Assembly: GCF_030499515.1 (NCBI RefSeq)
Contig: NZ_JASTWJ010000001.1
Span: 4,506,001-4,570,000, forward strand
Source of the DNA: Streptomyces sp. DT2A-34
GTDB taxonomy: Bacteria > Actinomycetota > Actinomycetes > Streptomycetales > Streptomycetaceae
Length of the DNA stretch: 64,000 nt
Direction: 5' to 3'
The stretch's first letter is position 1, and each line of letters begins with the position of its first letter. Positions 42,964-60,293 of the stretch are shown here, piece after piece. A model generated the notes under the pieces. The model was not told the DNA's origin. It worked only from the letters and a program-made list of their open reading frames with translations, and searched no databases. A program made the position numbers and the translations under genes.

Positions 42964-44898
42964 TCACCCGAAGTCCGGGATGAGGGCCAGCGTTTTCGGG
43001 TCGCCTGCCAGGTGGGTGATGAACCGCCGGTCCAGGAACCGGTTGCCGCGCTCGCACGTCGTCTCGGACACGAACAGACAGGAGTGGCAGGCGGCACCGT
43101 GCAGGAAGTCCTCCGGCGCCTTGGGAAGACGCTCGCCGCACAGCGGGTCCGAGGAGCACCGCCCTGCCTTGTACAGCGCCGTCCGTACGATCCTGGCCAG
43201 CCGGTTCTCCCCAGTGCTCGGATCCTGATCGGCGAGGGAGACCAGCCCGCCAAGCGTGCCCTCCGAGTCCGGGACGGCCGTGTAGATGAGGATGCCGGTC
43301 CGCCGTTCCTCGGCGTCGCCGCTATAGATCCGCTCGGCCAGACTCGCCGAGTTGTAGCCGCACTCCATCGCGATGGTGCGGATGAGTAGATGGGAGAGCG
43401 TGTGAAGGGCGATGTAGCGACTGCCCGGCCAGCCTTGCATCAGGTCGGAACCGTCCTGGATCCGTTCCGACCTGCGGTGCTCACGGAACCGGCCGAAAGC
43501 CGCGGCGTGTGCGGCGAGGGCGTCGCTCGACGCGACTCGCTGCTCCCACTGCTCGATCAGGTGATCGTCCACCCGCAGGAACAGCCCCTCGCCGCGCACC
43601 TCGCTGGCCGGCACCCAGCCGCGCTCGCGCCGCCCCAGGTCCACGCGGGTGACCAGGCCGGGGTCCTCCGGATCGGGGGCGTCGAGCCGGGTGAAGCCGA
43701 TGAGGGCCCGCACCTCGCGCAGTCGTTCCGCCTGCCGCACCTGGGAGAAGACAGTGGACAAGGGCCCGCTGAGCGAAGCGTCCACCAGCGCGAAGTCCTC
43801 AGTCGGGTCGGCGGTCTTTGCCGCGGACAGCACCTGCCATTCGGGGGTCAGTAGGTCCGGAGGGCCTGGAGGCTGCTCGGTCTCGCCCGCATCGCCCGAC
43901 AGGGCCGCGCGGTAGGCGGATATGGCCTGCCAGACCTGTCCGGGTTCGTAGTCGCGCAGGTAGCGGTGGTGCTTCGACTTCTTGGCGAACATGGCGATCT
44001 CCGCCTCGTCCTCGAAGTCCTCCAGGTCCGGCCAGCGTTCCTCGACGAGCTTACGCAGCGAGTCGGTCCCGGTGTCGGGCAGTGCCAGTGCGCTGAGCGT
44101 CACGGGGAACCACTGGTTGGACGCGCCCACGACCAGCAGATACGGCGTCTCGTCGCAGGTGTCGTAGACGCCGTCGAACTGCGGGTGTCGGCCACGGCAA
44201 CGGGGCAGGTTCTCGCGGCCCTTGTCGCCCATCGCGTCCCGGATGTTGCGCTTCGCCTTCTTGCACACCAGGCATTCGAGGGAGACGTTGGCCGCAAGGT
44301 TGCCCCCGTTGTCGCGCATCCGCAGCGTCGGGTACGTCGTGTCGGGGCAGGAGCGGCCCTCGTGCACGAACTCCGTGTACGGGAACTCGTCGAGGTGACC
44401 CTTGGTGCAGGCGAGCGCGAAGCGGGCGGCCACGGCGAGGGGCTTGCGGCCCTTCTTCTTCCGGTAGCAGTTCTCGTGGTAGAACCGCGCCTCGTCAGGG
44501 CGGCGAGCGTTGTTGTTCTCGAACCCCCACTTGCCCGAGCCCAGGGAGGCCAGCTCATTGCACGCTGTGCAGCGCAGCCACTGCGGGAAAGGGGTCACGG
44601 GCACGCCGATCCGTGCCGCGTTCCCCTTCGGGTCGGTGTCGGTACCGGGGATCCATGGGGCGGCGCGCAGTTCGCCCACCTGGTTCGGGCCGTAGCGCCG
44701 CAGGGCCCGGTTGACGGCCCCACGGAGGCGGGGCTCCTCGATTACCGGATCGGGCACACCGGCGTAACTCCAGTGGTCGAGGCCCTTGACCATGACGGAG
44801 AAGTTGGGCAGGTCGACGAGGGCGCCGACGCCGCCGGTGAACATGAGGTGGCTCGGCCGTACCGCCCCCACCCGCCTGAAGTATCCGCCGCCGCTCAT
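42964..44898 (-). CDS. drmB: DISARM protein DrmB (DUF1998)
   Basis: 644 aa; its ATG overlaps the drmA stop (ATGA). N-terminal pattern MSGGGYFRRVGAVRPSHLMF and the metal-binding cysteines in LRCTACNELASLG and the later GAACHSCLFVSETTCERGNR are those of DUF1998. DrmB partners with the DrmA helicase in blocking phage DNA in characterised DISARM systems. Spacing and overlap with drmA and drmC show one transcription unit. Confidence 0.93.
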   Translation of the reverse strand: MSGGGYFRRVGAVRPSHLMFTGGVGALVDLPNFSVMVKGLDHWSYAGVPDPVIEEPRLRGAVNRALRRYGPNQVGELRAAPWIPGTDTDPKGNAARIGVPVTPFPQWLRCTACNELASLGSGKWGFENNNARRPDEARFYHENCYRKKKGRKPLAVAARFALACTKGHLDEFPYTEFVHEGRSCPDTTYPTLRMRDNGGNLAANVSLECLVCKKAKRNIRDAMGDKGRENLPRCRGRHPQFDGVYDTCDETPYLLVVGASNQWFPVTLSALALPDTGTDSLRKLVEERWPDLEDFEDEAEIAMFAKKSKHHRYLRDYEPGQVWQAISAYRAALSGDAGETEQPPGPPDLLTPEWQVLSAAKTADPTEDFALVDASLSGPLSTVFSQVRQAERLREVRALIGFTRLDAPDPEDPGLVTRVDLGRRERGWVPASEVRGEGLFLRVDDHLIEQWEQRVASSDALAAHAAAFGRFREHRRSERIQDGSDLMQGWPGSRYIALHTLSHLLIRTIAMECGYNSASLAERIYSGDAEERRTGILIYTAVPDSEGTLGGLVSLADQDPSTGENRLARIVRTALYKAGRCSSDPLCGERLPKAPEDFLHGAACHSCLFVSETTCERGNRFLDRRFITHLAGDPKTLALIPDFG

Positions 44899-47800
44899 GA
44901 CCGCTGCCCCCTGGCCGTGCCGTTGTCGTCGCCGTTCCCGTCCGGGTCCCGCACCTCGCCGAGTTCGTCGCCGCTCGTCGTATCCAGGCCGTCGCCGTTC
45001 TCGGCGGGTGGTCCGAACTCCCAGGCGTTGCCAGCCGGGGCCGACAGCACGGTGTCGGCGGACAACAGCATGTTGATCTCGTTCTCCGTCTCGCGCATCG
45101 ACTGCGGGACGGTGAGCACGTCCCATCCGCTGCCGTCCGCGTTGCGCAGCAGGCCCAGCACCGTCTGCTTCTGCCGGGTCTGGCCCCGGTAGCCGAGCCT
45201 GCCCTGTTCACCCTTCTTGGCCGTCCAGGCGTCACGCAGGGCGTCGATGCGCTCGGCAAGGTAGCCGCGCGCCCGGTCCCCGTCCACGGCCTCCGCGCGC
45301 GCCAGCAGCCGTCGCTCGACGTCCTGCACCCGAGGGTCGTCGAGGTCCACCCCCTCCGCGTCCACGTTGTCGGAGAACTCGTCGCACGCCTGCCGCACGG
45401 CGGAGACATATGTGGCGGTGGTGCCCCGGTCGAGCGCCCGCCGCGTGAACGGAGTCACCGACAGCGCCTCGACTTGCCGGTAGAACGTCGCGTGGTAGTG
45501 CTCGAAGTCCTCGAAATGGGCAAGGTCCCGGGGCCGCGCCCAGTTGTAGAGCGTGATCACGATGCCGGGCCGCTTGGCCTGACGTCCGACACGGGAGGAT
45601 GCCTGAATGTATTCGGCGGTGTTCTTCGGCTGCCCGGTGACGACCATCAGGCCGAAGCGGGAGACGTCCACGCCCACCTGGAGCATCGACGTGGCCAGTA
45701 CGTGGTCGACCGGCCTGCGGTGCAGTGGGGCGGGCAGGACCCGGGGCTGACGGGCCCTTCCGGCGTCCCGGAGCTCGTCGACGATCGCCTTCTTGCGCTC
45801 CGATGTGTCGTGCTCCGGGTTGAACCCGATCTCCAGCCGCTTGAGGGTGGCGCTGATCTCCGCCGACGAGATACGGGAGGTCAGCTCCTGGAGGTTGAGC
45901 ATGTCGGTGTCGCGCAGCAGCCGGTTGGCGATTCCCCGGCGGCGTCCGTTGGCCCGGAGTCGGCTAGGCACGTCGTCGTCCAGGACGCGCCGCATACCGG
46001 CGAGTTCCTTGGTCGCGTTGAAGTACCCGACCACCGTCATGTACGGATCGGCGGGAGCACCGTAGAGGTCGAACATGTGCTGCCCGGCGAGCAACAGGAT
46101 CTCCGCGACACGGATCTCGGCGGCCTTCATGCGCACCCCGTGCGCGCAGACGCCGTAGTAGCGCCGCCCAGGGTTGTCCCGGGTGACGTCGACCTGCTGG
46201 GAGAAGAAGGTGTCGCTGACGTCGACCACCTGTGGCGGGAAGATCGCCAGGTCCCGGGCGAACACGCCAAGCACCTGCGCACGGGCGTTGCGGGTGGTGG
46301 CCGTCGACGCGACGATCTTCGGCCCGGTGTCCCGGAGCTGCCCGTGGGAGTCCTTCGCCCGCCAGGTGCACAGCTGGTCGACGGCCGACTCGAACAGCCC
46401 CACTGTGGTGCCCAGCGCCCCGGAGATCAGGTGTAGCTCGTCTTGGATGATGAGGTCCGGAGGCCGCAGCCGCCGTGGCATCGGCCGGCTGGTCACGGCC
46501 TTGTGCCGGTCCTTGGCGTTGTGTCGGGACCCGCAGCCGATCTCCTCGTCGAGGTCGTCGTGGCGGTAGCCATGCCGATCGCAGTAGGCACTCACGCGCC
46601 CGAACAACATTCCCGCATAGCCGCGCCACGGCAACTGGGCGAGCTTGTCCACGGTCGCGATCAGCAGGCTCGGCACCAGCCGGTAGATCTCCTCGTCGAC
46701 TGTGAGGATCGGCAGCCCCTCACCCCGCGCCTGCATCCGGGAGAACGGACAGGGCTCCGCGTCCTCCCCACGCGGGCAGTACACGACGACGCTCCGCCGT
46801 ACGTCGTCCGGTGCCACGTCACGCCACGCGCGCAGTTCCTCGCCGCACCACGGGCAGGACAGCACCTGTAGGACGTTCGCATGACGCCCGGAGGCGGACT
46901 CGTTGGCCTCGGCGATCTGCTGCGCCGCGTCCCCGTACCAGTTCGGCGAGACACCGGCACCGACCCACAGCCCGATACGGAACGGCCTGCTGCCCCAGAC
47001 CGCCTCGTCCTCCCTGCGCAGCACCTCCGTCGCGCACACCAGGGCGGAGGCTCGCTGGAACTGCTGGGCCGTCAGCAGCCGCAGCGTGTACCGCATCAGT
47101 ACGGCGACGCCGTCCCGCCCCTCGCGGGCGTCCTCGCCCTCCCCGACAACCTTCTGCAGCCGCCGGATGGCGAACGTGTAGGCCGTGAGACCGAGATACG
47201 CCTCTGTCTTACCGCCACCAGTCGGGAAGAACAGGAGGTCAACCGTGGCGGTGCTGTCCGCCCTGCGCTCCTTGTGTGCGGGGTCGCTGAGGGAGCACAG
47301 GTTGAGCAGCACGAACGCCAGCTGGAAGGGGTACCAGCTCGCGGCCAAGGGACCGCGTGCATCGACCTCGGCGTAGGCCGCCGCGTACGTGGGCGGCTTC
47401 TCACCGCCCTCGGCCCGCAGAGCGGCAGTCGCCGTGGCCCGGCGCTGCATGGCCATGGCCCGGTTGGCGAACCGGAACGCCCGCAGCGCGTCACGGTCGG
47501 TGTGCAGCAGCTCGATACCGAGGGCGATCCGGCCGCACGCGTCGCGGGCCTCGTCGACCGCCCGTAGCGCGGTGGTCCGCAGTTCGCCCGACAGCGACTC
47601 CGCCTTGGCGGCCTGCTGTTGCAACCAGCCGTCGTAGCCGTCGGCCAGCGGCTGCAGGGCCTTCAGTAGCTCGTCGCGCCGCTCCCAGACAGCCAGTTCG
47701 GCGAGCTTGTCCATGCTCACCTCAAGACCGGCGAGCAGCGGCTGCCGAGCCGTGTTCGGAGCGACCGTGGCCGGTACGTCCTTCACCGGCAGCCAGGTCG

Positions 47801-48740
47801 TCTCCAACCTGACCGCGCGCCGCCCCTTCGGCAGGACACTCGCGTGCACGGCGACGTTCCGTCCATGCGCGTGCTTCAACTCCTGCCGGTACAGCAGCCG
47901 CAGATGCTGTTCCTCGGGGTTCTCCAGGATGTGGCCGGGCTCGTCGTCGGACAACGGGTCGTCGATCGGCAGGAAGACGCTGGACTGCCCGTCGAAGGAG
48001 GTGACTTCCAACTTCGTCTGGAACAGCCACTGCCCGTCCCGCAGTTCACGGGACTCCTCCAGCGCGTTGATCAGCGACACGTCGACGAAGCGCAGGTTGT
48101 TCGCGCCGTCGACCGTGCCGGGGCGCTCCCGCACGTGCACGTCGAGCCGGATGCAGGGGAGGTCCGGGTCGGTGTCGTCGACGCCCTCCAGAACCTTGCG
48201 GACGGTGCCCGGCGAGTCGACGTGAATGTCCACCGCGTACCGGACGGGCTCGCGCGACCACGCCCGCACAGCCCGGCCGTCGTCGGTCTTATTGTCGCTC
48301 TGCCGGTACCGGCCCCAGGACGCGACAACGCTGAGAATGCCCACATCGGCCGGCACCAGGAAGCTCAGCCCCATGGACGACGCCCACAGCCGTCCGGCGG
48401 CCTGTGGGGTGAGTCGCTCTGCGAGCTCAGGGTCCCGCCCGTCCCCCTCAGCGCTGACCTCGGTCTCCGCCTGGCCCGCCGCGACGTTCACGGGCGCGTC
48501 GGTCGGTGCGGGCCGGGGCCCAAGTAGCCCAACGAGGTAGCGGTCACGGGGCCCCGCACTGTGCGGCGCCAGCGCCTCGGTCTCGTCCGCCCACGGCCCC
48601 AGCAGATCCCGTGAGATCAGATCGCCGAGCTCCTCCCTGACGTCGTACGACGTCCCGGACCGAAAGGTCTGCGGGACCTCGTCCACGGGGTGGGGAACGC
48701 CCGGCTCCGGAACGGGGGCGTTCTGTGGTGACGACGGCAT
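44895..48740 (-). CDS. drmA: DISARM helicase-like protein DrmA
   Basis: 1281 aa from MPSSPQNAPVPEP (GGGAGGG upstream). Walker A LLFFPTGGGKTEAYLGL near residue 510, the DEAH-like box IIQDELHLISGALG near 765, and C-terminal helicase motifs ATSMLQVGVDVSRFGLMVV and QASSRVGRQAKRPGIV. This is the hallmark DISARM helicase. It overlaps drmB, and 188 bp separate its start from the tyrosine recombinase upstream. The unusual separation from drmMI is caused by the inserted recombinase and inverted cassette. Confidence 0.93.
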   Translation of the reverse strand: MPSSPQNAPVPEPGVPHPVDEVPQTFRSGTSYDVREELGDLISRDLLGPWADETEALAPHSAGPRDRYLVGLLGPRPAPTDAPVNVAAGQAETEVSAEGDGRDPELAERLTPQAAGRLWASSMGLSFLVPADVGILSVVASWGRYRQSDNKTDDGRAVRAWSREPVRYAVDIHVDSPGTVRKVLEGVDDTDPDLPCIRLDVHVRERPGTVDGANNLRFVDVSLINALEESRELRDGQWLFQTKLEVTSFDGQSSVFLPIDDPLSDDEPGHILENPEEQHLRLLYRQELKHAHGRNVAVHASVLPKGRRAVRLETTWLPVKDVPATVAPNTARQPLLAGLEVSMDKLAELAVWERRDELLKALQPLADGYDGWLQQQAAKAESLSGELRTTALRAVDEARDACGRIALGIELLHTDRDALRAFRFANRAMAMQRRATATAALRAEGGEKPPTYAAAYAEVDARGPLAASWYPFQLAFVLLNLCSLSDPAHKERRADSTATVDLLFFPTGGGKTEAYLGLTAYTFAIRRLQKVVGEGEDAREGRDGVAVLMRYTLRLLTAQQFQRASALVCATEVLRREDEAVWGSRPFRIGLWVGAGVSPNWYGDAAQQIAEANESASGRHANVLQVLSCPWCGEELRAWRDVAPDDVRRSVVVYCPRGEDAEPCPFSRMQARGEGLPILTVDEEIYRLVPSLLIATVDKLAQLPWRGYAGMLFGRVSAYCDRHGYRHDDLDEEIGCGSRHNAKDRHKAVTSRPMPRRLRPPDLIIQDELHLISGALGTTVGLFESAVDQLCTWRAKDSHGQLRDTGPKIVASTATTRNARAQVLGVFARDLAIFPPQVVDVSDTFFSQQVDVTRDNPGRRYYGVCAHGVRMKAAEIRVAEILLLAGQHMFDLYGAPADPYMTVVGYFNATKELAGMRRVLDDDVPSRLRANGRRRGIANRLLRDTDMLNLQELTSRISSAEISATLKRLEIGFNPEHDTSERKKAIVDELRDAGRARQPRVLPAPLHRRPVDHVLATSMLQVGVDVSRFGLMVVTGQPKNTAEYIQASSRVGRQAKRPGIVITLYNWARPRDLAHFEDFEHYHATFYRQVEALSVTPFTRRALDRGTTATYVSAVRQACDEFSDNVDAEGVDLDDPRVQDVERRLLARAEAVDGDRARGYLAERIDALRDAWTAKKGEQGRLGYRGQTRQKQTVLGLLRNADGSGWDVLTVPQSMRETENEINMLLSADTVLSAPAGNAWEFGPPAENGDGLDTTSGDELGEVRDPDGNGDDNGTARGQRS

Positions 48741-48928
48741 GCGCGTATCCCTCCCTGGGCGCGAACCAGCACCCGCGAACAACGATAGGGGGACCCACTG
48801 ACATTGGTGGGGTCCCGGTGAGCCGCACAGGGCCGTGCCGGTTCGGCAACGACTCAAAGCCGCCTCGAGGGCCCAGCTGGTTTCGTGGACTCGCCGAGCT
48901 ACCGCAAGCCCCGCGGTGGGACACCACT

Positions 48929-49792
48929 TCAGACTCGGGCTTCATGGCGGCACGACAGGCATTGGTGCGAGCTTGTTCTCCGCCCCTTTGGCCGTGATGC
49001 GCCCGGGTCAGCTCCTGGAAGATCAAGCACGACCACGTGAACACGGTCGTCCGCGACGGCTGCGTACCCAGCTGTGGTCGCTGGAGACGCGTGGCGCATC
49101 AGGCGTTGCGTCATGAGCAGGTCTCTGCCGGAAGAGCGGTAGACCATCGTTCCGTATCGGTGTCTCAGCTGGTGGTAGCGCATGCGGATGCCGATCTTTG
49201 CAGCGATCCCGGCGACAGTTCGGGAGACGGATTCGGCACGCGTTCCTTCCCAGAATCTGCCGCTTCCCGTCAGGTCGAGTGTCTTCATGACGACCGGTGG
49301 CACCGGGATGGTGTCCGTGCGTCCACCCTTGCCTGTCACGCGGAGTATCGCTGTGCCGTCATCGAGAGTTGATAGGTCTTCCCTGGCAAGTTTGGCCGTT
49401 TCGTGCGCGCGGAGGCCACAGAAGGCCCCTAGCAGGACCCAGGTCTTGTGCGCTCCACGTGTGACTGCGGTAAGCCGCTTGAGTTCATCTTCTGGGAGCG
49501 GATGAGGTGTTGACCGGGGTGCTGCGGGCTTGCGTATGCCCTCTATGAGGTCCACTCCCAGCCACTTTCCAAACGCCTGGAGATGGTTTAGGTAGGTTCT
49601 GCGTGACCATGGGCGTAAGGGGCGTGCGGCGAAGTACGCGATGACATGATCGACCTTGAGCTGGCCTGCGGTTACGCCGGCAGAGCGGGCTATGGCCTTG
49701 ATGCAACGTACTCGGGCTCCGATGGTGTTGGTCGAGTAGCCGTCCGCTCGCTGAGCCTCAGTGAACTTGTCGAGTGTCATGAGGAACGTCAT
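48929..49792 (-). CDS. Tyrosine recombinase embedded in DISARM
   Basis: 287 aa. N-terminal SAM-like core-binding domain (RADGYSTNTIGARVRCIKAI; YLNHLQAFGKWL), then a catalytic domain with Arg in GAFCGLRAHETAKL (near 127), Lys in VTGKGGR, HQLRHRYGT (near 209), the His in LMRHASPATT and the Tyr in AGYAAV (near 236). All catalytic residues are present, so it should be active. It has no arm-binding domain, so it resembles Xer/invertase-type enzymes rather than element integrases. It lies in the DISARM operon between drmA and an inverted specificity cassette, pointing to a role in cassette inversion. Confidence 0.92.
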   Translation of the reverse strand: MTFLMTLDKFTEAQRADGYSTNTIGARVRCIKAIARSAGVTAGQLKVDHVIAYFAARPLRPWSRRTYLNHLQAFGKWLGVDLIEGIRKPAAPRSTPHPLPEDELKRLTAVTRGAHKTWVLLGAFCGLRAHETAKLAREDLSTLDDGTAILRVTGKGGRTDTIPVPPVVMKTLDLTGSGRFWEGTRAESVSRTVAGIAAKIGIRMRYHQLRHRYGTMVYRSSGRDLLMTQRLMRHASPATTAGYAAVADDRVHVVVLDLPGADPGASRPKGRRTSSHQCLSCRHEARV

Positions 49793-49869
49793 GTGCCTGG
49801 CCGTGGAGCCCTTACCGTGGCGCGATGAGTTTGGCGGGATCCGCCCCTAAATCGTCCTGACCTGCACTC

Positions 49870-50922
49870 TTGGCAATCGGCAATCGTCTGGTAGCGGTGT
49901 GGGGGTCTGACGTGCCTGATGACAAGGCAGTTGCGAGGCCACCGGCGTTCATCGGGTCTTACGTGCTGGGGAAGGGCTTCATCCTCGCCCCCGAACAGGC
50001 CCACGACCTCATCCAGCGCGACCCCCGCAACAAGGACGTCCTCTTCCCCTACCTCAACGGCGAGGACCTCAACTCCCGCCCAGACTGCTCAGCCAGCCGC
50101 TGGGTGATCAACTTCCATGACTGGAGCGAGGAACGGGCCCGGGGATACCCCGAAGTATTCGCCATCGTCGAAAGAGACGTGAAGCCCGAACGACTCAAGA
50201 ACAACCGCAAAGTATATCGGGACTATTGGTGGCAATACGCAGAAAAGCGGCCAGCAATGATTAACGCCATCAAGGGGCTTGATCGCGTCTTGGTGGTAGC
50301 AAGGGTAAGCCGGACGGCCATGGCGACCATCGTGCCCACAAGTCAGGTACTGAACGAAAAGATCGTTCTCTTTGCCTGTGACGGTGTTGATGTAATGGCC
50401 CTGCTGAACTCAAGCATTCACGTGCTATGGGCATGGAAATATTCGGCGACACTGAAATCTGACCTGCAGTACACTCCATCCGATTGCTTTGAAACATTTC
50501 CCATGCCGCAACACCTCCCCCTCTTGGAGACCCCCGGGAAGAGCCTGAGTGAAACCCGCACCGCAGCCATGCGGAGCCGAGAATGCGGTCTTACGAAACT
50601 TTACAATCTAGTCAATAATCCACAGGTTTCTGATAGTGATATAAGCAAGCTCCGTGAATGCCATAAAGTTCTCGATGAGAAGGTGGCTGAAGCTTACGAA
50701 TGGGGCGACCTTGACCTCAGTCACGGATTCCATGAAACCCGAAATGGGGTCCGCTTCACTGTCCCTCCAGTTACACAAAATGAGATCCTGGACAGGCTTC
50801 TTGAGCTCAATCACGCACGATTCAATCGAGTAGCAGACGCGGCAAGCCATGAAGGACTGGAGCGATCACCCGTGCGCGACAATGAAGGAGTCGCCGCACC
50901 CCGTGGGGATACCCTGTTCTGA
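49870..50922 (+). pseudogene. Silent inverted drmMI specificity cassette
   Basis: A + strand open frame with only TTG (49870) or GTG (49912) as possible starts and no methyltransferase core. From codon 32 it is identical to drmMI residues 1117-1196, then continues as a diverged homologue of its C terminus. Shared landmarks in order: LDRVLVVA, VSRT, WAW, Y.PSD..ETFP, GLTKLYN, EILDRLLELNHA and the ending GDTLF. It lies opposite and tail to tail with drmMI, eight bases between stops. Best read as an alternative DNA-recognition cassette without its own promoter. The segment upstream (RLVAVWGSDVPDDKAVARPP) also resembles drmMI (RLVANKGK) but is longer. Confidence 0.85.
49963..50202 (+). repeat. 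240-bp inverted repeat, left copy
   Basis: Perfectly identical in reverse complement to 51672-51911; I compared every base. The match stops sharply at both ends. It covers the conserved hinge of the methyltransferase just before the specificity domain. Confidence 0.97.
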
Positions 50923-50948
50923 GATACCCCTCAGAACAGGGTATCCCC
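50905..50948. terminator. Palindrome ending both drmMI and the cassette
   Basis: Arms GGGGATACCCTGTTCTGAG at 50905-50923 and its exact complement at 50930-50948, with a 6-nt loop (ATACCC). Each arm encodes the final GDTLF and stop of one gene, so both reading frames end inside the same hairpin. It acts as a plausible bidirectional terminator and as a second, inner inverted repeat near the centre of the invertible segment. Confidence 0.9.
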
Positions 50949-53900
50949 GCCGCATTCCGGAGTGAGATGTTCCTGATCATGAACTGCCGATCCGGTAGCA
51001 ATGGTATGCCGATCCATTACTTGGGGGGAGTTTTTTGGTGAGTTATTTCTATGCTGAGCATGGTTAAGCTCAAGGAGTCTGTCTAGGATTTCAATCTGAG
51101 CCGAGGGCGCGACCGCGAATCGCGTACCCTGTCGATTTGGATAGAAATCGTGAGCGAGGTCGACGTCTTGCCAATTGTAGGACTCAAGTACAGACTGGTC
51201 GATCTTCCGGTGATTTTCACGCAGAGACTCGATGTCGCTATCCTTCACTGTAGGGTCATGGGTCATGTTATATAGCTTTGTGAGCCCTACGCTTCTGTCA
51301 ATCATTACATCAAACCTCAGCCTGTCGAGAGTTTCTCCATTCCTTCGGACTTCGGCAGTGGTGACAGGTCGAGGGAATGTTTCGTAAACATCAGACGGGG
51401 AGTAATTAAGATCCGCCTTCATCGTTGATGAATTGCGCCATGCCCAAATCGAGTGGAATGAACTCGAAAGCAGGGCGAGGTCGTTATCCTCGGCCGTAGC
51501 GAAGACTCCCAACTTGTGAGAGAGGACTTGGCGGCTAGGCACACGAGCTGGCATGACCGTTCGGCTGACAAGCGCTACCACCAGAACACGGTCCAAGTTG
51601 GAGATGGCACGGTAAAGATCCATTGCAGGACGGGTGAAGCGCCACCAGATCTCGCGACGTTGACGGTTGGCGTTCTTGAGTCGTTCGGGCTTCACGTCTC
51701 TTTCGACGATGGCGAATACTTCGGGGTATCCCCGGGCCCGTTCCTCGCTCCAGTCATGGAAGTTGATCACCCAGCGGCTGGCTGAGCAGTCTGGGCGGGA
51801 GTTGAGGTCCTCGCCGTTGAGGTAGGGGAAGAGGACGTCCTTGTTGCGGGGGTCGCGCTGGATGAGGTCGTGGGCCTGTTCGGGGGCGAGGATGAAGCCC
51901 TTCCCCAGCACATTGGATCCCTGGAACGACTTGCCCTTGTTCGCTACCAGACGGTATGGCCGCCCGGAAACCCGAGACCGCGGATCAAGCGACGAAGTGA
52001 TACCCCGGACCGCGACATCGTCCAGTACCCGAGTGGCTTCCGCACCCAAACCCGGCTTGGTGGTCCACACAGCGCAGTACTCCAGCGCCGCAGACCGCGA
52101 AGGCCAGCGAGCGCTCTTTACTGCTCGGCGTACCTCGATGCCGTCGTCGAGTAGCTGGTCCAGCCCGACCTCCCGAGTGTCGCCCTGGGCAAGGGTGTTG
52201 GTAGCGATCAGGCCCGTCTGGCCGCGCTCGCTGAGCAACTGGTGGGCCCGGAGCTCGAAGTACGCGACGAGGTCCGCGCTACCCCGCTGCCCCCGCCCCA
52301 GCCCCAGCACGAGGTACTCGCGGTACGCCTGCCCCAGCGCCCCCGTCAGCTTCTGGCCGCCGAGGAAAGGAGGATTGCCGATGATCGCATCGAAGCCGCT
52401 CTGCTCCGGCTCGAAGACCTCGGGGAAGACGAGAGGCCAGTGCACGGGGAGGCGAACGAAGCCGTCTGCGGGGAGATCCTTGCTCAGCCAGTCCAGGGCG
52501 CGCCTTCGCGCATCGTGAATCACGGGATCGGAGTCGCGGACCGACTCCGAGGCAACCATTCCGGCCAGTTCCGCAGCCTGGATGTAGGTAGCGTTTTGCA
52601 GCGAGTCCCCGCCGCTGGCAGAAGCCAGGCCAGCCCCGGTCGTGAGGTCGCCGATCAGCCTCAGGCGTTGCAGGTGTTCGTTGGTGGCCGCGAGCAGACG
52701 TCGCTTCTCATTGAGGTCGGCGATCGTGTCGCTGTGGATTCCGGCGATGGCCTGCCGGGTGTCTGCGGCGCCTTGGACGCGAGCGCGCGCTCGCGCGGTC
52801 CACCCCTCGTCGAAGGCTCCTCGGTGGAGTTTGCGGCCCGCCTTCGGATCCAGATGCACACTCTCGATCTGCTCCAGATTAGCGATACCCAGCAGCGAGT
52901 CCCCCGCCACCAAGCGGTCATCCAGGAACGTGAACGGCCGTTCCGGGTCCATGGAGATCAGCCACAGCGACAGCTTGGCCATCTCCACCGCCATGGGATT
53001 GATGTCCACCCCGTACAGGCAGTGCTCGATGATCAGGCGCCGGGCGCGGACCATCACCGGGTCGCTCTCCGCGTCCGCCGCCGTCATCGCGCCCGCTTGG
53101 TCGCGGTGGCTGCCGCGGAACGCAAGGGCCTCCTCGTCCTCTGCCTCGACCCAGGCGTCGACCAGACGGTCCGCGAGGTAGCGGCAGGCGGCGACTAGGA
53201 AGGCGGCCGAACCCATCGCGATGTCGGCGACCTTGAGCTTCAGGATGTCGTCCGCGCCGATGAGCTTCCACTGCTTGTCGTCCCCCGTCTGGAGCGGGCC
53301 CGGACGGTAGACGAGTGGCTCCAGTGCTCCCACGGCGACCTGCTGGGCCAGGACACGCGGCGTGTAGTGGGTGCCGGTGTTCTTGCGGAGGCGGGACTCC
53401 GTGACGTACAAGCCATCCTCCGGGATCACCACCGGCAGACCGCGAAGGTCGTCGCGGAGGAGGCCGTGGAAAGGGAGGATGCGCTCGGCCAGGTCGCGGT
53501 CGTTCTCGGTGACCGCGAGCAGGCGGTGGACGGCCTTGCCCCGCGCCTGATCGTCGCCAGGGGCGAGCAGCTTCTCCATCTTCGACGCCGCGGCCGGCGG
53601 CCTGGGGTCCTTCAAGTGCTCGTACAGCTTCTTCGACAGGCCAGGGAGGTTGGGCTTCTGACCGGAGACGGCGCGTGCGCCCACTCCGAACGGGGCGGCC
53701 AGTTCCTCCAGTTCGGTCAGGCTCACCTCGTGTTCCAGGCCGGGCTTGCCGATGAGCCCGAGCACGGTGTCCTGGGCGCGCTTGCCGTCGTACGAGAGGA
53801 GGCCCTCGTAGACGTAGCCGATCTGCTCGACGTCGAGGGCGCGGAAGGTCAGCCGGCGCCGCTCCCTGTTGACGACGACGAACTGCACCGAGTCGAGGAC

Positions 53901-55259
53901 GTGCAAGACGGTGCGGTCGTCGATCGGGAGGAGGGAGGTGTGGCCGTCAGCAGCCCGCGTGGCGTCGTCGCCCGTGGCGTCCGCGCCCTCCGGGACTGCC
54001 TCCAACCAGGGGAAGCGCTTCGGGTCGAAGATCGAGCCGTCATACGCGGGCAATGTGAGCAGCGGGTGGTCCACTCCGCCGTGGACGGCGTGGAAGAGGG
54101 CGATCAGCCGGTGCCAGGCGGCGGTGGTGTGGTCCAGGGAGTCCTCGCCGTCCGCGCGGCGGCGTTTGTCCAGCGTCTCGTACAGCCGGCCGGCCGAGTA
54201 CGCCTCCGCGTAAAGCTCGTTGTCAGCGGGCAGCAGGCCCCGTTCCTCGGCGAAGAGGAGGAAGACGACGCGCATCATGACCGCAACGGCGCCCCGGTAG
54301 ACCTCGCTCGCCGGTACGCCTGACAATCCCTTGCCGCCGCGTTTGACCATCCGGGCCTCGGCGCGGCCGATAGAGTCCACCAGGAGTTCGACGGCTTGAC
54401 GGACCTGGATGCCGAGCGCCTCGGTGACGTCTTCCTGACCGTCCAGGCTCTCGCGCAGCAGCGCAGGGAGCAGTTCGTCCACCGGGCGTCCGAAGAACCG
54501 GCCGCGGCGGAGGAGGGACACCCAGGCGCGGACCGCCACCAGGTCGGCCGCCTCGTTCCAGGCGATGGTGTCGAAGGTGGCGCTCGTCGTGACGCCGCCG
54601 GGCGGTGCCCAGACCAGGGACCACCAACGGCCGTCGGTGACCAGGCCCAGCTCGACGCCATGGTGGCGCAGGACGTGGGCGAGCCGGTCGACTCCGCTCG
54701 CCGCCCAGGAGTCGTCCCTGATACGGCGGGTCGGCACGGTGTCGGGCGGGAGGACCAGGCCGAGGATCGGTACGTGCTGGGCGGTGCCAGCAGTATCCGG
54801 TTCGGCGGTGGGGTCGGTTCCGGGACGGACGAGGGCGAAGTCGGGGCGGACGGTGGTGTCGGACCCGGGCGGGCTGACGGCGAACCGGTCCAGCAGCGTG
54901 TCGTCCTCGGCCAGGCTTTCGCCGTTGTCGCCGAACTGTCCGGCGCCCTCCCGCAGATGCAGGGCGTCGTCCCATTCCAGCAGGGTGCGCAGCTGGAAGC
55001 CGATCCAGCCGAGGCGGCCGGCGCCCTTGCGGTCGTCCTGCCAGATGCCGTGGTGGAGGCGGATGTCGGCGCGGCGCCCGCTGGGCACGCCTTCCAGCTG
55101 TGGCCAGCTGCGCAGCAGGACCGGCAAGGTGAGGAACGGGCCGGACACCTCGACGAGGTTCAGCCAGTCCAGATGCTGCTGCTTGCCGTCGGACGCCTTC
55201 GCGGCACGGATTGCGGCGGCGGAGGGACGGCGGCTTCCGGAGCGCGGCGCGGAGCTCAT
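50931..55259 (-). CDS. drmMI: DISARM adenine methyltransferase DrmMI
   Basis: 1442 aa from MSSAPRSGSRRPS; its ATG overlaps the drmD stop (TGATG). SAM-binding part: VADIAMGSAAFLVAACRYLA (motif I variant), VDINPMAVEMAKLSLWL and the adenine N6 motif FDAIIGNPPFLGGQ near residue 960, the Eco57I/PglX type. A Lys/Arg-rich helical region precedes the C-terminal specificity domain (about 1197-1442), coded by visibly AT-richer DNA. Residues 1117-1196 lie in a perfect inverted repeat shared with the silent cassette. It methylates host DNA to protect it from the system. Strand inversion would replace its last 246 residues by the cassette's 239. Confidence 0.93.
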   Translation of the reverse strand: MSSAPRSGSRRPSAAAIRAAKASDGKQQHLDWLNLVEVSGPFLTLPVLLRSWPQLEGVPSGRRADIRLHHGIWQDDRKGAGRLGWIGFQLRTLLEWDDALHLREGAGQFGDNGESLAEDDTLLDRFAVSPPGSDTTVRPDFALVRPGTDPTAEPDTAGTAQHVPILGLVLPPDTVPTRRIRDDSWAASGVDRLAHVLRHHGVELGLVTDGRWWSLVWAPPGGVTTSATFDTIAWNEAADLVAVRAWVSLLRRGRFFGRPVDELLPALLRESLDGQEDVTEALGIQVRQAVELLVDSIGRAEARMVKRGGKGLSGVPASEVYRGAVAVMMRVVFLLFAEERGLLPADNELYAEAYSAGRLYETLDKRRRADGEDSLDHTTAAWHRLIALFHAVHGGVDHPLLTLPAYDGSIFDPKRFPWLEAVPEGADATGDDATRAADGHTSLLPIDDRTVLHVLDSVQFVVVNRERRRLTFRALDVEQIGYVYEGLLSYDGKRAQDTVLGLIGKPGLEHEVSLTELEELAAPFGVGARAVSGQKPNLPGLSKKLYEHLKDPRPPAAASKMEKLLAPGDDQARGKAVHRLLAVTENDRDLAERILPFHGLLRDDLRGLPVVIPEDGLYVTESRLRKNTGTHYTPRVLAQQVAVGALEPLVYRPGPLQTGDDKQWKLIGADDILKLKVADIAMGSAAFLVAACRYLADRLVDAWVEAEDEEALAFRGSHRDQAGAMTAADAESDPVMVRARRLIIEHCLYGVDINPMAVEMAKLSLWLISMDPERPFTFLDDRLVAGDSLLGIANLEQIESVHLDPKAGRKLHRGAFDEGWTARARARVQGAADTRQAIAGIHSDTIADLNEKRRLLAATNEHLQRLRLIGDLTTGAGLASASGGDSLQNATYIQAAELAGMVASESVRDSDPVIHDARRRALDWLSKDLPADGFVRLPVHWPLVFPEVFEPEQSGFDAIIGNPPFLGGQKLTGALGQAYREYLVLGLGRGQRGSADLVAYFELRAHQLLSERGQTGLIATNTLAQGDTREVGLDQLLDDGIEVRRAVKSARWPSRSAALEYCAVWTTKPGLGAEATRVLDDVAVRGITSSLDPRSRVSGRPYRLVANKGKSFQGSNVLGKGFILAPEQAHDLIQRDPRNKDVLFPYLNGEDLNSRPDCSASRWVINFHDWSEERARGYPEVFAIVERDVKPERLKNANRQRREIWWRFTRPAMDLYRAISNLDRVLVVALVSRTVMPARVPSRQVLSHKLGVFATAEDNDLALLSSSFHSIWAWRNSSTMKADLNYSPSDVYETFPRPVTTAEVRRNGETLDRLRFDVMIDRSVGLTKLYNMTHDPTVKDSDIESLRENHRKIDQSVLESYNWQDVDLAHDFYPNRQGTRFAVAPSAQIEILDRLLELNHAQHRNNSPKNSPQVMDRHTIATGSAVHDQEHLTPECGGDTLF
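51672..51911 (-). repeat. 240-bp inverted repeat, right copy (within drmMI)
   Basis: Codes for drmMI residues 1117-1196 exactly, starting and ending at codon boundaries. Perfect reverse complement of 49963-50202. The 12-bp stretch at 51942-51953 is also matched inversely at 49885-49896, outside the main repeat. Confidence 0.97.
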
Positions 55260-58200
55260 CAGTATGCCTCCTTGGCGGGGATGACGAAGACGACGGCGAC
55301 AGGGAAGAGATGGTCCTGCGGCTCGCGGTAGCGGGCGGCGATCGCGGCGAGTTCGCGCTGGCGTTCGTCCTCCACACCGTCGAGCCGGGCCCGCCAACGT
55401 TTGCGGTCGTCGGCGAGCTGGCGGCGTTCGTCGGGATCCTTCAGCTCGTCCAGGCCGAAGAGCGTGTCCATCCCGCCCGTCGGGGAGGCCGCCGTGGCGG
55501 AGGAGGTCTCCCCGAGCCGGTTCCGCAGAGTGCGCTGGAGACGGTTGAGGGTGGCGTTGATGCGCTGCTCCTCATCGGCCTGGCGCTCGGCCAGCCGGTC
55601 CATCAGGGACACCTTGCGTTCCTTGCCGCGCGCGTCGACAGACTGGGTGAGGCCCTCGTACGTCTTCGGCCAGCTCTGCTGGAGCCGGTGGAGCAGGCGC
55701 TCCTTGGCGGGACGGCCCTCGGTGAGCGCTCGGTCCAGGATCGAGGCGACCGCCTCTACTCCGCGCAGCCGACGCTGCCAGCCGTTGTCGCCGAGCCAGC
55801 CACCCGCGTGCAGGATCTCCTCATGGAGGCGCTGCCCGTCCGTGCCGACCAGCACGAAGCGGGCGTACGCGCCGACGAACGTGGTCTCCAGGGCGGGGTC
55901 GTCGCTGACGACGGCCGTGATCCGGCGCAGGTCGACGTTGTCCGCGTTCCAGACGGCCGCGCGCAGCAGCCGCGTCGACATGGCTACCAGCGGATGGTTC
56001 AGATGGGCCAGCACGATGTCGGGGCGCCCCGAAGCTGCCCGCGCATCGAAGGTGACCGGGCGAAGGACGTCGGGGCGAAGCTTGTCGGGCAGGCCGCGGG
56101 TGGCGCGCTCCCACGAGCCGGTCAGCGGGGGCACGGTGTACAGGCCCTGCCGGAAGTCGTCCTCGGACGGCGCGTTCTCGTCGAGGCACGGTACGAGCGG
56201 CTGCTGGCGGGCCAGGTTCAGCGCGGTGTTCACCACGCGGGCGACCCGGTCCGGGGTGATGCCGAGCTCCACGGTCGTCTGCTTCAGCTGGGCGCTGAGC
56301 CGCCGCACCTGGTCGGTGACGTTCTGTTCGGCGTCCACCTTGCCGCCCGTGGGGCGCCCCTTGATCTTCTTCGCGCGGGCGTGCTCGATGTCGAAGTCGC
56401 TGAGCTGGCCCGTCATCCGCAGCTGGACCTTCTCCGCGAGTACGGCGTTGACCTCGCCGAGGTCCTCCTCCATCTGCGCGACTTTCCTCGCGATACGGGC
56501 GAGGAACTCCAGGTCGGCCTCGTACACGTCCGTCCTGGCTTTGTCCCAGGCGGCGCCGACGAAGTGCATGATCTGCGGGTTGTGGCGCTGGCCGTAGCGG
56601 TCGATGCGGCCGATGCGCTGTTCGAGCTTGTTGGGGTTGAACGGGATGTCGTAGTTGATCAGGTGTCGGCAATGATCTTGGAGGTCAATTCCTTCGCTGG
56701 CGGCGTCAGTCGCGATGAGGATGCGGACCGTGCCCTCGGGGCTGGTGGGCTGTTCCTGGAAGGCGAGCCGGATCTGCTCGCGCTCTTCGGCATTCTTCCC
56801 GCCGTGGAGGGTGAGGACGCGGCCCTCCTGGGCCAGCCCCTCCTGCTGGAGCAGGTTTAGCAGCCAGTCCTGGGTGTCGCGGTACTCGGTGAACACGACG
56901 ACCCGCTCGTTTCCCCAGGTCCCGCCGGTGAGGCAGATGGCCTTGAGGGTCTTGACGAGCTCCTTGGCCTTGGCGTCAGGGGACGCCTGGTGGGCCTGGC
57001 CCCAGCGGGCCATCCGCTCCAGCAGCTCGGCCTCTTCCTCGGAAGATCCCGGGGTGACCGTGGCTGCGCGGGTGATCGCGTCGTGCTCGGCCTCGGCCAG
57101 CTCCTCGTCGTCGAGCTCGGCGGCGTAGTCCTCGTACTGCGTGATCCACAGCGGGGTCTCGACCGGGGCCGGAACCTCCTTTTTTCCGCCTGACTTCGCC
57201 TTGGCGCGTACCGATTCGAGGTGGACGCCGACGGTGTGCGCGAAGGCGGCGGGAGAGGAGAACAGCCGCTTCTTCAGCAGCAGGGTGACCAGGTCGACGG
57301 CCTTCCGGCCGCCGCGCCGGTCGGGCGTGACCCGCTTCCTGCGCAGTTCTGCGTAGCGGGTGAGGAGGGCGTGGATCTCGCGCTCGGTGTCGGGGTACTC
57401 GACAGGCAGCGCCTTCGACTCGCGGACGTGGAAGCGGGGGTTGCCCTCCTCGTCGGTCACGGAGGTCTTCAGACGTCGTACGACGGTGTCGTCGAGGGCG
57501 GCCTTGTCCGGCTCGCCGCCGCGGAAGAAGCGCTGGTTGTCGATGAGTTCCAGCAGGGCGGTGTACGACTCCTGGTAGCCGTTGTGCGGGGTGGCGGAGA
57601 GGAAGAGCCGGTGCTCGAAGTGGGGGGCGAGACGCCGGATCAGCTTGGTCTGCTGGGAGTCGACGGCGTAGATCTGCTTGGGCGCGCTCGGGGCGACATG
57701 GTGTGCCTCGTCCAGGATCAGCAGATCGAAGGTACGGCGCCCGGGGCGGCCCGGCAGCTCCGTCGCCCCTCCCGGGGGTAGCACCTCGTCGACAAGCCGC
57801 TGCGCCTTGGGCGTGCGCAACCAGGGGAGGCTGACGATGGTCAAGGGGAACACTCGGAACGGGTTGGCGGCGCTGCTGTGCGTGCGGCGCAGTTCGGCGC
57901 AGCAGGCAGAGTCGACCACGGTGAAGTCGAGGCCGAACTTGTCGGCCATCTCGTCGCGCCACTTGAGGGTGAGCCCCGCTGGGCAGACAACCATGACGCG
58001 ATGGGCCCGGCCGCGCAGCCGCAGCTCCTCGGCGACCAGTCCGGCCTCCACGGTCTTGCCGAGACCGACATCGTCGGCGAGCAGCAGATTGACGCGGGGG
58101 GCGCCGACGGCGCGAGCGACCGGTTCCAGCTGGTACGGCTCGATGGCCACCCCTGACCGGAAGGGGGCCTGGAGCGTCTTCACGTCAGCGGAAGCGACGG

Positions 58201-58507
58201 CGGACCAGCGGACGGCGTCGAGGAAGGCCGCGAGCTGCTCCGGCGGGTCGAACGCTCCGGTGGAGGCGTCCGGAAGGGAGCCGGCGGGGAGGACGCGGCG
58301 TCCCGGCTCGACCTCCCATATCACGGAGAGGGTGTCGCCGTAGCGGCCATCGGCAACGGACTGTAGATGCACCACGGTGGCATCGCCGGCCGGGGCGGCT
58401 TCGACTCCGGACACCACCCAGTTCTGGCCGCGTACCTGGACGAGAGCATTCTCCTTCGGCGGCGCGACGATTGCGGAGGCTTCGGAAGTACGGGTGGTTC
58501 CGGGCAT
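55259..58507 (-). CDS. drmD: DISARM SNF2-type helicase DrmD
   Basis: 1082 aa from ATG 58507, chosen for GGAGG eight bases upstream (GTG 58528 adds seven residues). Motifs: LLADDVGLGKTVEAGLVAEE (I), LLILDEAHHVAP (II), FLSATPHNGY (III), and the C-terminal ATDAASEGIDLQ then RIGRIDRYGQR (VI). This RapA/SNF2-like ATPase defines class 1 DISARM. Translation is coupled to drmMI. A near-palindrome upstream may regulate the operon. Confidence 0.93.
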   Translation of the reverse strand: MPGTTRTSEASAIVAPPKENALVQVRGQNWVVSGVEAAPAGDATVVHLQSVADGRYGDTLSVIWEVEPGRRVLPAGSLPDASTGAFDPPEQLAAFLDAVRWSAVASADVKTLQAPFRSGVAIEPYQLEPVARAVGAPRVNLLLADDVGLGKTVEAGLVAEELRLRGRAHRVMVVCPAGLTLKWRDEMADKFGLDFTVVDSACCAELRRTHSSAANPFRVFPLTIVSLPWLRTPKAQRLVDEVLPPGGATELPGRPGRRTFDLLILDEAHHVAPSAPKQIYAVDSQQTKLIRRLAPHFEHRLFLSATPHNGYQESYTALLELIDNQRFFRGGEPDKAALDDTVVRRLKTSVTDEEGNPRFHVRESKALPVEYPDTEREIHALLTRYAELRRKRVTPDRRGGRKAVDLVTLLLKKRLFSSPAAFAHTVGVHLESVRAKAKSGGKKEVPAPVETPLWITQYEDYAAELDDEELAEAEHDAITRAATVTPGSSEEEAELLERMARWGQAHQASPDAKAKELVKTLKAICLTGGTWGNERVVVFTEYRDTQDWLLNLLQQEGLAQEGRVLTLHGGKNAEEREQIRLAFQEQPTSPEGTVRILIATDAASEGIDLQDHCRHLINYDIPFNPNKLEQRIGRIDRYGQRHNPQIMHFVGAAWDKARTDVYEADLEFLARIARKVAQMEEDLGEVNAVLAEKVQLRMTGQLSDFDIEHARAKKIKGRPTGGKVDAEQNVTDQVRRLSAQLKQTTVELGITPDRVARVVNTALNLARQQPLVPCLDENAPSEDDFRQGLYTVPPLTGSWERATRGLPDKLRPDVLRPVTFDARAASGRPDIVLAHLNHPLVAMSTRLLRAAVWNADNVDLRRITAVVSDDPALETTFVGAYARFVLVGTDGQRLHEEILHAGGWLGDNGWQRRLRGVEAVASILDRALTEGRPAKERLLHRLQQSWPKTYEGLTQSVDARGKERKVSLMDRLAERQADEEQRINATLNRLQRTLRNRLGETSSATAASPTGGMDTLFGLDELKDPDERRQLADDRKRWRARLDGVEDERQRELAAIAARYREPQDHLFPVAVVFVIPAKEAY

Positions 58508-58569
58508 GCGGACATCCTCCACTATCACTACCGGCGAGACGGCGGTGCCTACCGGAGTGCCTCATATTG

Positions 58570-58637: not shown

Positions 58638-60293
58638 TCACTGCGGGAGGCGGAGCGCGCGGGTCAGTCTGCCCAGGCGGCTGACCAGACGCTCCACCTC
58701 GGCGTGGGCCTGATGGTCGGGAGGCAGCGCGGTCCGTTGGTCGTCGGCGAGGTGGCGCAGAGCCTCCAGGGCTTCACCAGCCGAGCCTGAGCCCGCCAGG
58801 AGGGTGGCGATGTCCCGGCGGGTCTCCAACACCTCCGGATCCAGCGGGGGAAGCACCTCCTTCTGGAGATCGAGTGCCTCGCGAAGCTCCAGGAGGGCGG
58901 CGGAGTTGTGCCCGAGCCGGCCAAGGCAGCGGGCCGCCATCACCCGGCAAGCCGCGAGGTCCGCGTCCGGCGCGGAACGGGTCGACACGAGGGTTTCCGC
59001 GAGCTCCAGGCAGCCCTCGCGTGCCGCTTGCAGTTCCTGCCCTTCGAACTGCAACCGGAGGATGGCCAGTCGGCGGGAGACGACCTCCGGATGGGAGGAG
59101 TCGAAACGGGGCAGCACCTCGTTGAGATCCCTGCCCAGCAGCTCCAGTGCCTGTGACAACCGTCCCTCTGCCGCAAGGCGTTGCGCGCGCTCGCGTAGGT
59201 CCGCCGATTCCGCGGGTGACCCGGCCCCGGAGGTGGACGGCGGTTGCGCTGGCCGAACGGAAGGTTGTGCAGTTGCGAGCGGGGCCGGGGCGTGCTCCGG
59301 AACGGATGCGTGCGCTTTGTCCGAAGGAGGATCGTTCGGAAGGTCGCTGCCATCGTGCGGCGGGCGCGCGGTGGCCTTGCCGGGCCTCGGCGTTCCGGCG
59401 CGGGCGGCCTTCGGCACCGCCTGCTCGGCCCAGGGCGCGAGGGCCTCCCGGACTTCGGCTGCGTCCGCCGGCCGGTCCTCCGGGCGCTTCGCAAGTAAGC
59501 GGGAGACCAGGTCGCACAGTTCGGCTGGTGCGTCGTCACGCAGCCGTTCCAGTGGTACTGGAGTATCGGCGATGTGCTGGACCACCAGGGCCAGCGGCTC
59601 GTCGGCCGTGAACGGCGGTCGTCCGCCCAGTATCTCGTACAGCACGCACCCCAGTGCGTACAGATCACTGAGGGGAGTGGCCGCCTGCCCCTTGCCTTGC
59701 TCTGGAGAGATGAAGCCCGGAGTTCCGGCCACCATGCCCGCGTCGGTCAACCGTGGCCTGTCCGGTGGTTGCAGGGCGGTGGCGATACCGAAGTCGAGGA
59801 CGCGTACCGTGCCGTCTGTCGTGAGCATCACGTTGCGGGGCGTCAGATCCCGGTGGACGAAGCCGCGTCCGTGAGCCTGGACCAGCACGGAGCACACCTG
59901 GGCGCCCACCGCGGCGGCCCACTCCACGGGAAAGGGTCCGCGCTGGGCCACCAACCGGTCCAGCGTGTGTCCGTACACGCGCTGCATGACCAGATAGAGC
60001 CGACTCGCTCGATGGGTGCCTGCATCATGGATGACCGGTACGTACGGATGCTCCAGCTTGGCCATCAGTCGTGCTTCTCTGGTGAAGCGGACGACGGCGG
60101 GGTCCTGCGGATCGAGCCTGCGCGGCATCCTGGAGACAGCCGTCCGTGGCGTCAGCAGTTTCACCGCCACAGACCGGTCCAGCCGCTGATCGTACGCCGC
60201 CCACACCTCGCCCATGCCACCTCTGCCGAGCAGCTCCGCCAGCTCGTAGCGGCCGTCGATCAGTTCGCCCCTCGTCAGGTGCTGGTCCCTCAT
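58638..60293 (-). CDS. Soluble Ser/Thr protein kinase with TPR-like C terminus
   Basis: 551 aa from MRDQHLTRGELIDGRYELAE. Hanks-type kinase domain: LLGRGGMGEVWAAYD (P-loop), VAVKLL (Lys), HRDLTPRNVML (catalytic loop near 144) and LDFGIATAL (near 167), then GTPGFISPEQ. A Pro-rich linker (about 290-370) leads to a helical repeat region (from about 370 to the end). No transmembrane segment, unlike most PknB-type kinases. It lies 130 bp upstream of drmD in the same direction, so read-through into DISARM is possible. BREX/Pgl systems also use a kinase, but membership in DISARM is not shown. Confidence 0.9.
   Translation of the reverse strand: MRDQHLTRGELIDGRYELAELLGRGGMGEVWAAYDQRLDRSVAVKLLTPRTAVSRMPRRLDPQDPAVVRFTREARLMAKLEHPYVPVIHDAGTHRASRLYLVMQRVYGHTLDRLVAQRGPFPVEWAAAVGAQVCSVLVQAHGRGFVHRDLTPRNVMLTTDGTVRVLDFGIATALQPPDRPRLTDAGMVAGTPGFISPEQGKGQAATPLSDLYALGCVLYEILGGRPPFTADEPLALVVQHIADTPVPLERLRDDAPAELCDLVSRLLAKRPEDRPADAAEVREALAPWAEQAVPKAARAGTPRPGKATARPPHDGSDLPNDPPSDKAHASVPEHAPAPLATAQPSVRPAQPPSTSGAGSPAESADLRERAQRLAAEGRLSQALELLGRDLNEVLPRFDSSHPEVVSRRLAILRLQFEGQELQAAREGCLELAETLVSTRSAPDADLAACRVMAARCLGRLGHNSAALLELREALDLQKEVLPPLDPEVLETRRDIATLLAGSGSAGEALEALRHLADDQRTALPPDHQAHAEVERLVSRLGRLTRALRLPQ

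Follow-up and report, generated by a model that had tools for sequence, protein, structure and literature searches.

The recognition domain of the DISARM methyltransferase DrmMI in Streptomyces sp. DT2A-34 is likely switched by a dedicated tyrosine recombinase, which would invert a 2069-bp segment (49885-51953) and is predicted to replace this domain and change the methylated sequence. All coordinates refer to the window, the whole stretch of 64,000 nucleotides that was analysed. An inverted, different second copy and a recombinase gene adjoin the C-terminal segment of DrmMI, and close relatives carry the ends swapped, from which we conclude that the segment likely flips. We propose that the recombinase acts at two short sites, A and B. 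With exchange at A the recognition domain would be replaced entirely, with exchange at B only in its C-terminal half (TRD-C and tail). The long repeat lying between A and B would be kept near-identical by recombination and may itself hold a crossover. The two orientations are predicted to give different methylated motifs, and a population to be a mix of cells with different self marks but unchanged drmA, drmB and drmC.

By PADLOC profiles, the locus is a complete class 1 DISARM, with all genes on the minus strand. It comprises drmD, an SNF2-type helicase gene and marker of class 1 (55259-58528, E=0, 1378.8 bits), the active methyltransferase gene drmMI (50931-55259, E=0, 1722.9 bits), encoding 1442 AA from an ATG at 55259 and carrying recognition domain alpha, and the core genes drmA (helicase; 44895-48857, E=1.5e-287), drmB (42964-45126, E=1.3e-63; Pfam MZB) and drmC (42180-43253, E=3e-110, match on residues 103-354), the core genes being given as longest open reading frames. 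Pfam profile search found Eco57I, MmeI_Mtase and MmeI_TRD domains in DrmMI, as expected of the class 1 adenine methyltransferase. The PADLOC gene set and the DrmMI profile bear out the assignment of the methyltransferase to DISARM, made earlier from the letters and reading frames (the sequence-only reading).

The same reading had described a perfect 240-bp inverted repeat followed by two tail-to-tail C-termini of 246 and 239 residues, and both points were confirmed. Exact comparison showed that the silent arm (49963-50202, plus strand) is the reverse complement of the active arm (51672-51911, minus strand) at 240 of 240 positions; about 2e-123 such repeats would be expected by chance in 64 kb. 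Beyond the repeat, the active drmMI frame runs for 246 codons to its end at 50931 on the minus strand, and the silent frame for 239 codons to 50922 on the plus strand. The active variable part (50931-51671, minus strand; 246 codons and stop) consists of a Y segment, site B, TRD-C alpha and a helical tail; the silent cassette (49885-50922, plus strand) is composed of site A, an X block, the repeat arm, a Y segment, site B and TRD-C beta. The alpha and beta C-terminal types share 46-48% AA identity. Pfam assigns the duplicated part to the target-recognition domain of MmeI (PF20466), with both cassettes matching positions 29 to 205 or 206 of 207. The open reading frame of the silent cassette (from 49870) matches PADLOC DrmMI (E=7e-123) and Pfam MmeI_TRD, and a Pfam profile search of this frame gave no match to methyltransferase domains.

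Inversion in silico of the predicted A-to-A' segment (49885-51953) kept the frame and joined drmMI to the silent domain, giving a product of 1447 AA (1442 before inversion) that is unchanged over its first 1106 residues; the locus hence holds an expressed and a silent cassette in inverted orientation that can be joined to the gene in frame. This agrees with the joining foreseen in the sequence-only reading, but the interval is 2069 bp rather than roughly 1.95 kb because the two copies share a 12-bp site outside the 240-bp repeat. When the whole genome was searched with 49900-52000, no match at E ≤ 0.001 lay beyond the locus, which ruled out a further copy of the repeat element elsewhere in the genome. 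An inverted repeat at 50905-50948, with 19-bp arms around a 6-nt spacer, links the two gene tails. It is predicted to form a hairpin in the RNA fold of 50890-50965 (-48.3 kcal/mol, z -7.5, none of 200 shuffles as good) and is probably a two-way terminator.

The tyrosine recombinase gene (48929-49792, minus strand; 287 AA; Pfam Phage_integrase PF00589, E=4.8e-9) is located between the silent cassette and drmA, its start 92 bp from the silent site A; the sequence-only reading had made no mention of it. Residues R128, K155, H207, R210, H234 and Y243 are invariant in all three aligned sequences, and we take them to be the candidate catalytic residues, a full set by sequence. The recombinase was found in 3 of 394 family genomes, own genome counted, and a search of relatives (395 genomes) returned the same two matches besides the own genome as a genus search (392 genomes). 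Outside the family but within the class, three weak matches (E 8e-31 to 2e-32) contain in-frame stops and were not counted as support. Among viral contigs, 51 pattern matches included no relative of the recombinase; plasmids gave four matches at 30-32% identity, and none came close to 48800-55259 at the DNA level; the matches in 239 phage records were all below 60% identity.

Site A (12 bp, common to both copies) lies at 51942-51953 on the minus strand in the active copy (CGTCTGGTAGCG, coding R-L-V-A) and at 49885-49896 on the plus strand in the silent one. Site B lies at 51573-51587 on the minus strand in the active copy (GTTCTGGTGGTAGCG, coding V-L-V-V-A) and at 50287-50301 on the plus strand in the silent copy (GTCTTGGTGGTAGCA), delimiting a predicted inner invertible segment of 1301 bp (50287-51587). 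By homology to MmeI, site A precedes the recognition domain and site B falls at its inner subdomain boundary. The mapping of base contacts from MmeI onto alpha and beta was kept at block level because placement by sequence search differs from that by multiple alignment by about two residues; a mapping of single base-contact residues was dropped on the same ground.

In the window, both candidate sites end in TGGTAGC. The variable third base in site A (CGT, CGA or CGG; the codons are CGT CTG GTA in locus L017) agrees between the two copies in all 7 loci in which both were found. In the DISARM genes of the window, GTA accounts for 7.5% of valine codons (29 of 387). Of 54 valine columns common to six active genes, only two, those at sites A and B, have GTA in 6/6; random placement of two columns would pick this pair with a probability of 1 in 1431, though the six genes represent about three lineages and are thus non-independent; two more columns have GTA in 5/6. 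At the aligned valine codon of DrmMI-like loci without the recombinase, GTA was seen in 0 of 27 at site A and 0 of 26 at site B, these control loci being 43-59% identical, often lacking valine at these positions, and having had no more than 1.5 kb of their flanks read. The sites also vary. The bases after TGGTA at site A are GC or TC depending on the locus, site B of L014 reads CGGTAGC, GTAGC at site B is absent in two of eight silent copies examined (L015, GTGGC; L049, GTATC), and the active and silent site B of the window share a core of only 10 bases. Inspection of the flanks by eye gave no convincing half-site arms for A or B. A and B are strong candidates for short crossover sites, but one swap between relatives lies in the repeat and no site A was found in L049. 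Nested at the TRD start (A) and the TRD-N/TRD-C boundary (B), they could flip independently and re-pair half-domains, so that one locus might yield as many as four DrmMI specificities; we give such a small shufflon even chances.

Relatives carry the mirror image of the window, where alpha is active and beta silent. In L048, beta is active and alpha silent, with 98.5% identity to the window in DrmD, 98.1% in the methyltransferase part, 98.6% in the recombinase, 97.3% in DrmA, 97.5% in DrmB and 94.6% in DrmC. Active copies of the two loci are 95% identical in DNA over the fixed flank; over the 300 columns after B, identity is 92% and 89% when compared crosswise vs. 50% and 47% at the same position. 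Proteins labelled NPDC087851, both listed on a contig of 1,147,242 bases, show the same swap (P0121, active beta, 91%; P0246, silent alpha, 92%). Beta is accordingly active in L048, P0121 and P0122, and alpha silent in L048 and P0246, and by sequence both arrangements occur in nature, between strains. In a wider TRD-C comparison, from which 96 of 204 entries were omitted as TRD-C could not be delimited and where silent means a protein below 400 AA (61 rows, part of all such rows), alpha at ≥80% identity comprised two active and four silent entries, two of the silent ones (L048 and P0262) probably representing the same locus, and beta three active and three silent entries.

The edges of these swaps between relatives fall at A, within the 240-bp repeat, or at B. 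Compared at the protein level, P0122 and P0219 have 6 differences over the first 1200 columns and then different domains right after LDRVLVVA, that is, at site B. Between the window and NPDC087851 the block right of A is kept and everything beyond the repeat is exchanged, which places that crossover inside the repeat. In L049, whose recombinase is 66% identical, similarity begins inside the usual repeat; site B is present in the active copy and no site A was found. The swapped-domain relatives and the co-occurring recombinase support the inversion originally read from the sequence, but edges at A and B rule out the 240-bp repeat as the sole site of crossover.

The inverted cassette accompanies the recombinase. 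It was present in 9 of 10 recombinase-bearing loci read, the tenth being on a cut-off contig, and in none of 27 recombinase-free DrmMI-like loci. In the family sample used for the recombinase count, 44 of 394 genomes have a DrmMI-like match, and only the 3 recombinase genomes among them gave an opposite-strand match to the recognition domain, with two candidates scored per genome. Among 30 loci fetched, 3/3 with the recombinase and 0/27 without it showed either an inverted cassette or inverted repeats of at least 40 bp. L046 and L047 are the same places as the longer reads L048 and L049; L046 gave no open reading frame in the codon comparison and L047 was left out. In L013 the recognition domains are masked (1205 N), and only the repeat and site A were counted. 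L011 and L012 begin at a contig end inside the cassettes, L012 giving the silent A and both B, and L011 neither site.

The same specificity switching, rare and unregulated, could arise if the long repeats flipped the segment by general homologous recombination and the recombinase gene were a passenger. The NPDC087851 swap within the repeat fits this, as do pneumococcal data: PsrA is required for inversion at the 15-bp IR1 of Spn556II (cod) but not at the 298-bp IR2 or 85-bp IR3 (PMC4948785), and spnIII recombination is, by the title of another paper, independent of all known site-specific recombinases (PMC6620402). We nevertheless regard this explanation as unlikely in view of the association of cassette and recombinase (3/3 vs. 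0/27), the confinement of all-GTA valine columns to A and B, and the P0122/P0219 swap at B. General recombination would have little to use at B: in the related L048 the core common to both copies is 11 bases long at this site, and the adjoining Y segments are just 48% identical.

A static store of domains, or a separately expressed recognition subunit, would explain why annotation treats many silent frames as genes in their own right (type IIL restriction-modification enzyme MmeI), and horizontal domain exchange instead of inversion would suit the high diversity of recognition domains (70 clusters among 108 TRD-C segments). Systems that are otherwise about 97-98% identical, however, carry the same domain pair in either arrangement, so that horizontal exchange would need a reciprocal swap of both cassettes; together with the lack of a methyltransferase-domain match in the silent frame of the window, this makes such a scheme very improbable. 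We give equally little credence to an on/off switch, in which one joined form would not be a working methyltransferase and a flip would turn DISARM modification off with the motif unchanged. Both domain types are probably under selection to work, since both match the MmeI recognition domain and occur in active position in other strains.

Several known systems come close to this one. In invertible BREX pglX genes, too, inversion switches the recognition part of an anti-phage methyltransferase. The DrmMI-like loci without the recombinase (27 from the family sample) belong to the same DrmMI profile family but have no inverted cassette or inverted repeat of at least 40 bp in the stretch read. MmeI (PDB 5hr4), a type IIL restriction-modification enzyme, differs in standing alone, and inversion of its recognition domain is not described in the portion of the record available. 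Spn556II is alike in switching recognition domains by inversion between an expressed gene and silent ones, in harbouring a gene for a tyrosine recombinase, and in its several repeats of unequal length (PMC4948785). Its domains reside in a separate type I specificity subunit with three hsdS genes, whereas here the domain is inside a single-chain MmeI-like methyltransferase of DISARM. A literature search, with incomplete and poor coverage of subscription papers, found no report of such inversion in DISARM, in line with the earlier remark that none was known.

DISARM has been proposed to separate self from non-self by methylation, with a DrmAB effector requiring no particular DNA sequence, and it also restricts phage without target sites, class 2 DISARM acting on modified phage (PMC9142583). 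The effect of a switch on restriction must therefore be measured. If the switch is real, a motif-changing DrmMI would mark self differently in each cell line, the effector staying the same. Phage carrying the modification of one variant might be open to restriction by the other, and siblings might be limited in exchanging genes. A shufflon, if present, would rewrite the self mark of a system whose DrmAB is proposed to sense methylation independently of sequence. The switch also raises the question of how cells survive while new sites await methylation. The strains of the window and of L048 form a natural mirror pair and a ready-made test case.

Matches to the PADLOC defence-system profiles revealed a complete class 1 DISARM in the window, whose strain has a genome of 10.3 Mb. 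The profiles identified drmD (55259-58528), drmMI (50931-55259) and drmA, drmB and drmC, all on the minus strand. Between drmMI and drmA lie a second drmMI C-terminus on the plus strand and, 92 bp from this silent copy, a tyrosine recombinase of 287 aa encoded on the minus strand. The perfect 240-bp inverted repeat described in the sequence-only reading was recovered as an exact match. Its further claim that inversion would join the other domain in frame also held, as the segment inverted in silico encoded a 1447-aa protein with residues 1-1106 the same as before. For the inverted repeat at the junction of the two 3′ ends an RNA fold of -48.3 kcal/mol (z -7.5) was obtained.

The recombinase accompanies the arrangement of inverted cassettes, i.e., copies of the DrmMI recognition domain (in the window of the types alpha and beta) that are either active (joined to drmMI) or silent. 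It was encoded (E <= 1e-20) in 3 of 394 family genomes, own included, while a DrmMI-like match (E <= 1e-30) was present in 44 genomes of the same draw; with two candidates scored per genome, an opposite-strand recognition-domain match was seen solely in the 3 recombinase genomes. Among 30 loci fetched from this search with flanks of at most 1.5 kb each, 3/3 with the recombinase vs. 0/27 without it had a cassette in inverted orientation or an inverted repeat (>= 40 bp). A pattern derived from the recombinase alignment retrieved 6 named loci from the species-genome collection, including that of G275 (L015), a family-sample genome labelled as the same genus as the window genome, and a genus search (3 of 392 genomes, own included) added two loci. 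Ten recombinase-bearing loci were read (window, L008, L010-L015, L048, L049). Nine contained both cassettes, whole or partial, in opposite orientation; among these, L013 has masked domains and L012 breaks off at the active copy. The remaining locus, L011, is truncated by the start of its contig. Of 61 silent-type frames from the protein collection, 14 (one labelled Nocardiopsis) were on contigs equal in size to one of 57 recombinase contigs, equal size serving only as a stand-in for contig identity.

Sequence comparisons show domain swaps between strains. In the window alpha is joined to DrmMI and beta is silent, and in the relative L048 beta is joined and alpha silent. These loci share 97.3-98.6% identity in drmD, the methyltransferase part, the recombinase, drmA and drmB, and 94.6% in drmC. 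In the DNA to the left of the cassette, identity followed position (active/active 95%); over the 300 columns after site B, a candidate recombination site at the inner subdomain boundary, identity was 92% and 89% crosswise and 50% and 47% by position. For the relative NPDC087851, beta sits in the active protein P0121 (91% identity, with 96.7% in the methyltransferase part) and alpha in the silent frame P0246 (92%). The closest pair, P0122 and P0219, compared as proteins only, is 99.5% identical over 1200 residues, with 6 differences in the first 1200 columns, and then continues into beta (P0122) or alpha (P0219). When TRD-C, the subdomain beyond site B, was clustered at 80%, the alpha cluster comprised 2 active plus 4 silent entries, the beta cluster 3 of each; active and silent entries were mixed in three further clusters.

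Site A, the candidate site before the recognition domain, bounds the fixed flank on its right; it reads CGNCTGGTA, codes R-L-V and is followed 3′ by GC or TC. Its variable base was the same in both copies at 7/7 loci where both were found, giving CGT in the window, L008, L010 and L048, CGA in L013 and L015, and CGG in L014. The silent site A of L012, the active copy of which is cut off, has CGT, and no site A was found in L049. The block right of site A is of two kinds, ANKG-like and FIGSY-like; at the six loci with differing copies, the active copy carries the ANKG-like block in the window, NPDC087851 and L014, and the silent copy carries it in L008, L010 and L015. In the window, site B is found 84 bp past the repeat; it encodes V-L-V-V-A or a similar peptide. 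Islands of active/silent identity stop at its GGTAGC in L008, L010 and L014, and this motif was present at B in 8/8 active and 6/8 silent copies examined (exceptions L015 and L049).

GTA accounts for 29 of 387 valine codons in the DISARM genes of the window. Across 54 valine columns shared by six active genes (window, L008, L010, L048, L014, L015), GTA was absent in 40, and exactly two columns, A and B, were all-GTA. The recombinase-free genes are only distantly related, and valine is often missing from them at these positions. GTA was the codon aligned with the third of A in 0/27 of them and with the fourth of B in 0/26 alignable genes; in L040, L043 and L044 it stands elsewhere in B.

The window/NPDC087851 swap falls within the 240-bp repeat, so a further site or else homologous recombination is at work as well. 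In L049 (7640-7700 and 9220-9270) the silent copy begins at CCCGGAAGTATTCGCC, within the usual repeat, possibly marking a third point of exchange; GTA encodes the valine at this place in 5/6 other genes. The silent TRD-C of L008 (9649-10686) is close to alpha in its first half and diverges past SDVYET, so the recognition domains are mosaic beyond site B too.

In BREX, pglX is invertible. The literature searched, with incomplete coverage, contained no report of such a switch for DISARM. The closest mechanistic counterpart is found at the pneumococcal Spn556II hsdS locus, in which inversion at the 15-bp IR1 needs the tyrosine recombinase PsrA and that at the 298-bp IR2 and 85-bp IR3 does not (PMC4948785), a close parallel to the short sites and long repeat in the window. 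In a DISARM structure paper, methylation status is proposed to be sensed by DrmAB without reliance on a given sequence, and phage without target sites are noted to be open to restriction by DISARM as well (PMC9142583).

The gap between recombinase and drmA may accept cargo: it holds a WD40-repeat protein and an esterase-like protein in L009 (2972-9103), a 979-aa frame in L011 (1472-4411) and extra frames in L013 (10855-17136). In the window, a UvrD-type helicase with partial GajB-like PADLOC matches (38442-40592, minus strand) adjoins the DISARM genes. Immediately upstream of drmD lies a serine/threonine kinase-like protein, its family named by eye, with a long C-terminal part (58638-60404, minus strand), and a frame at 62195-63073 (minus strand) has a DUF433 domain at its C-terminus.
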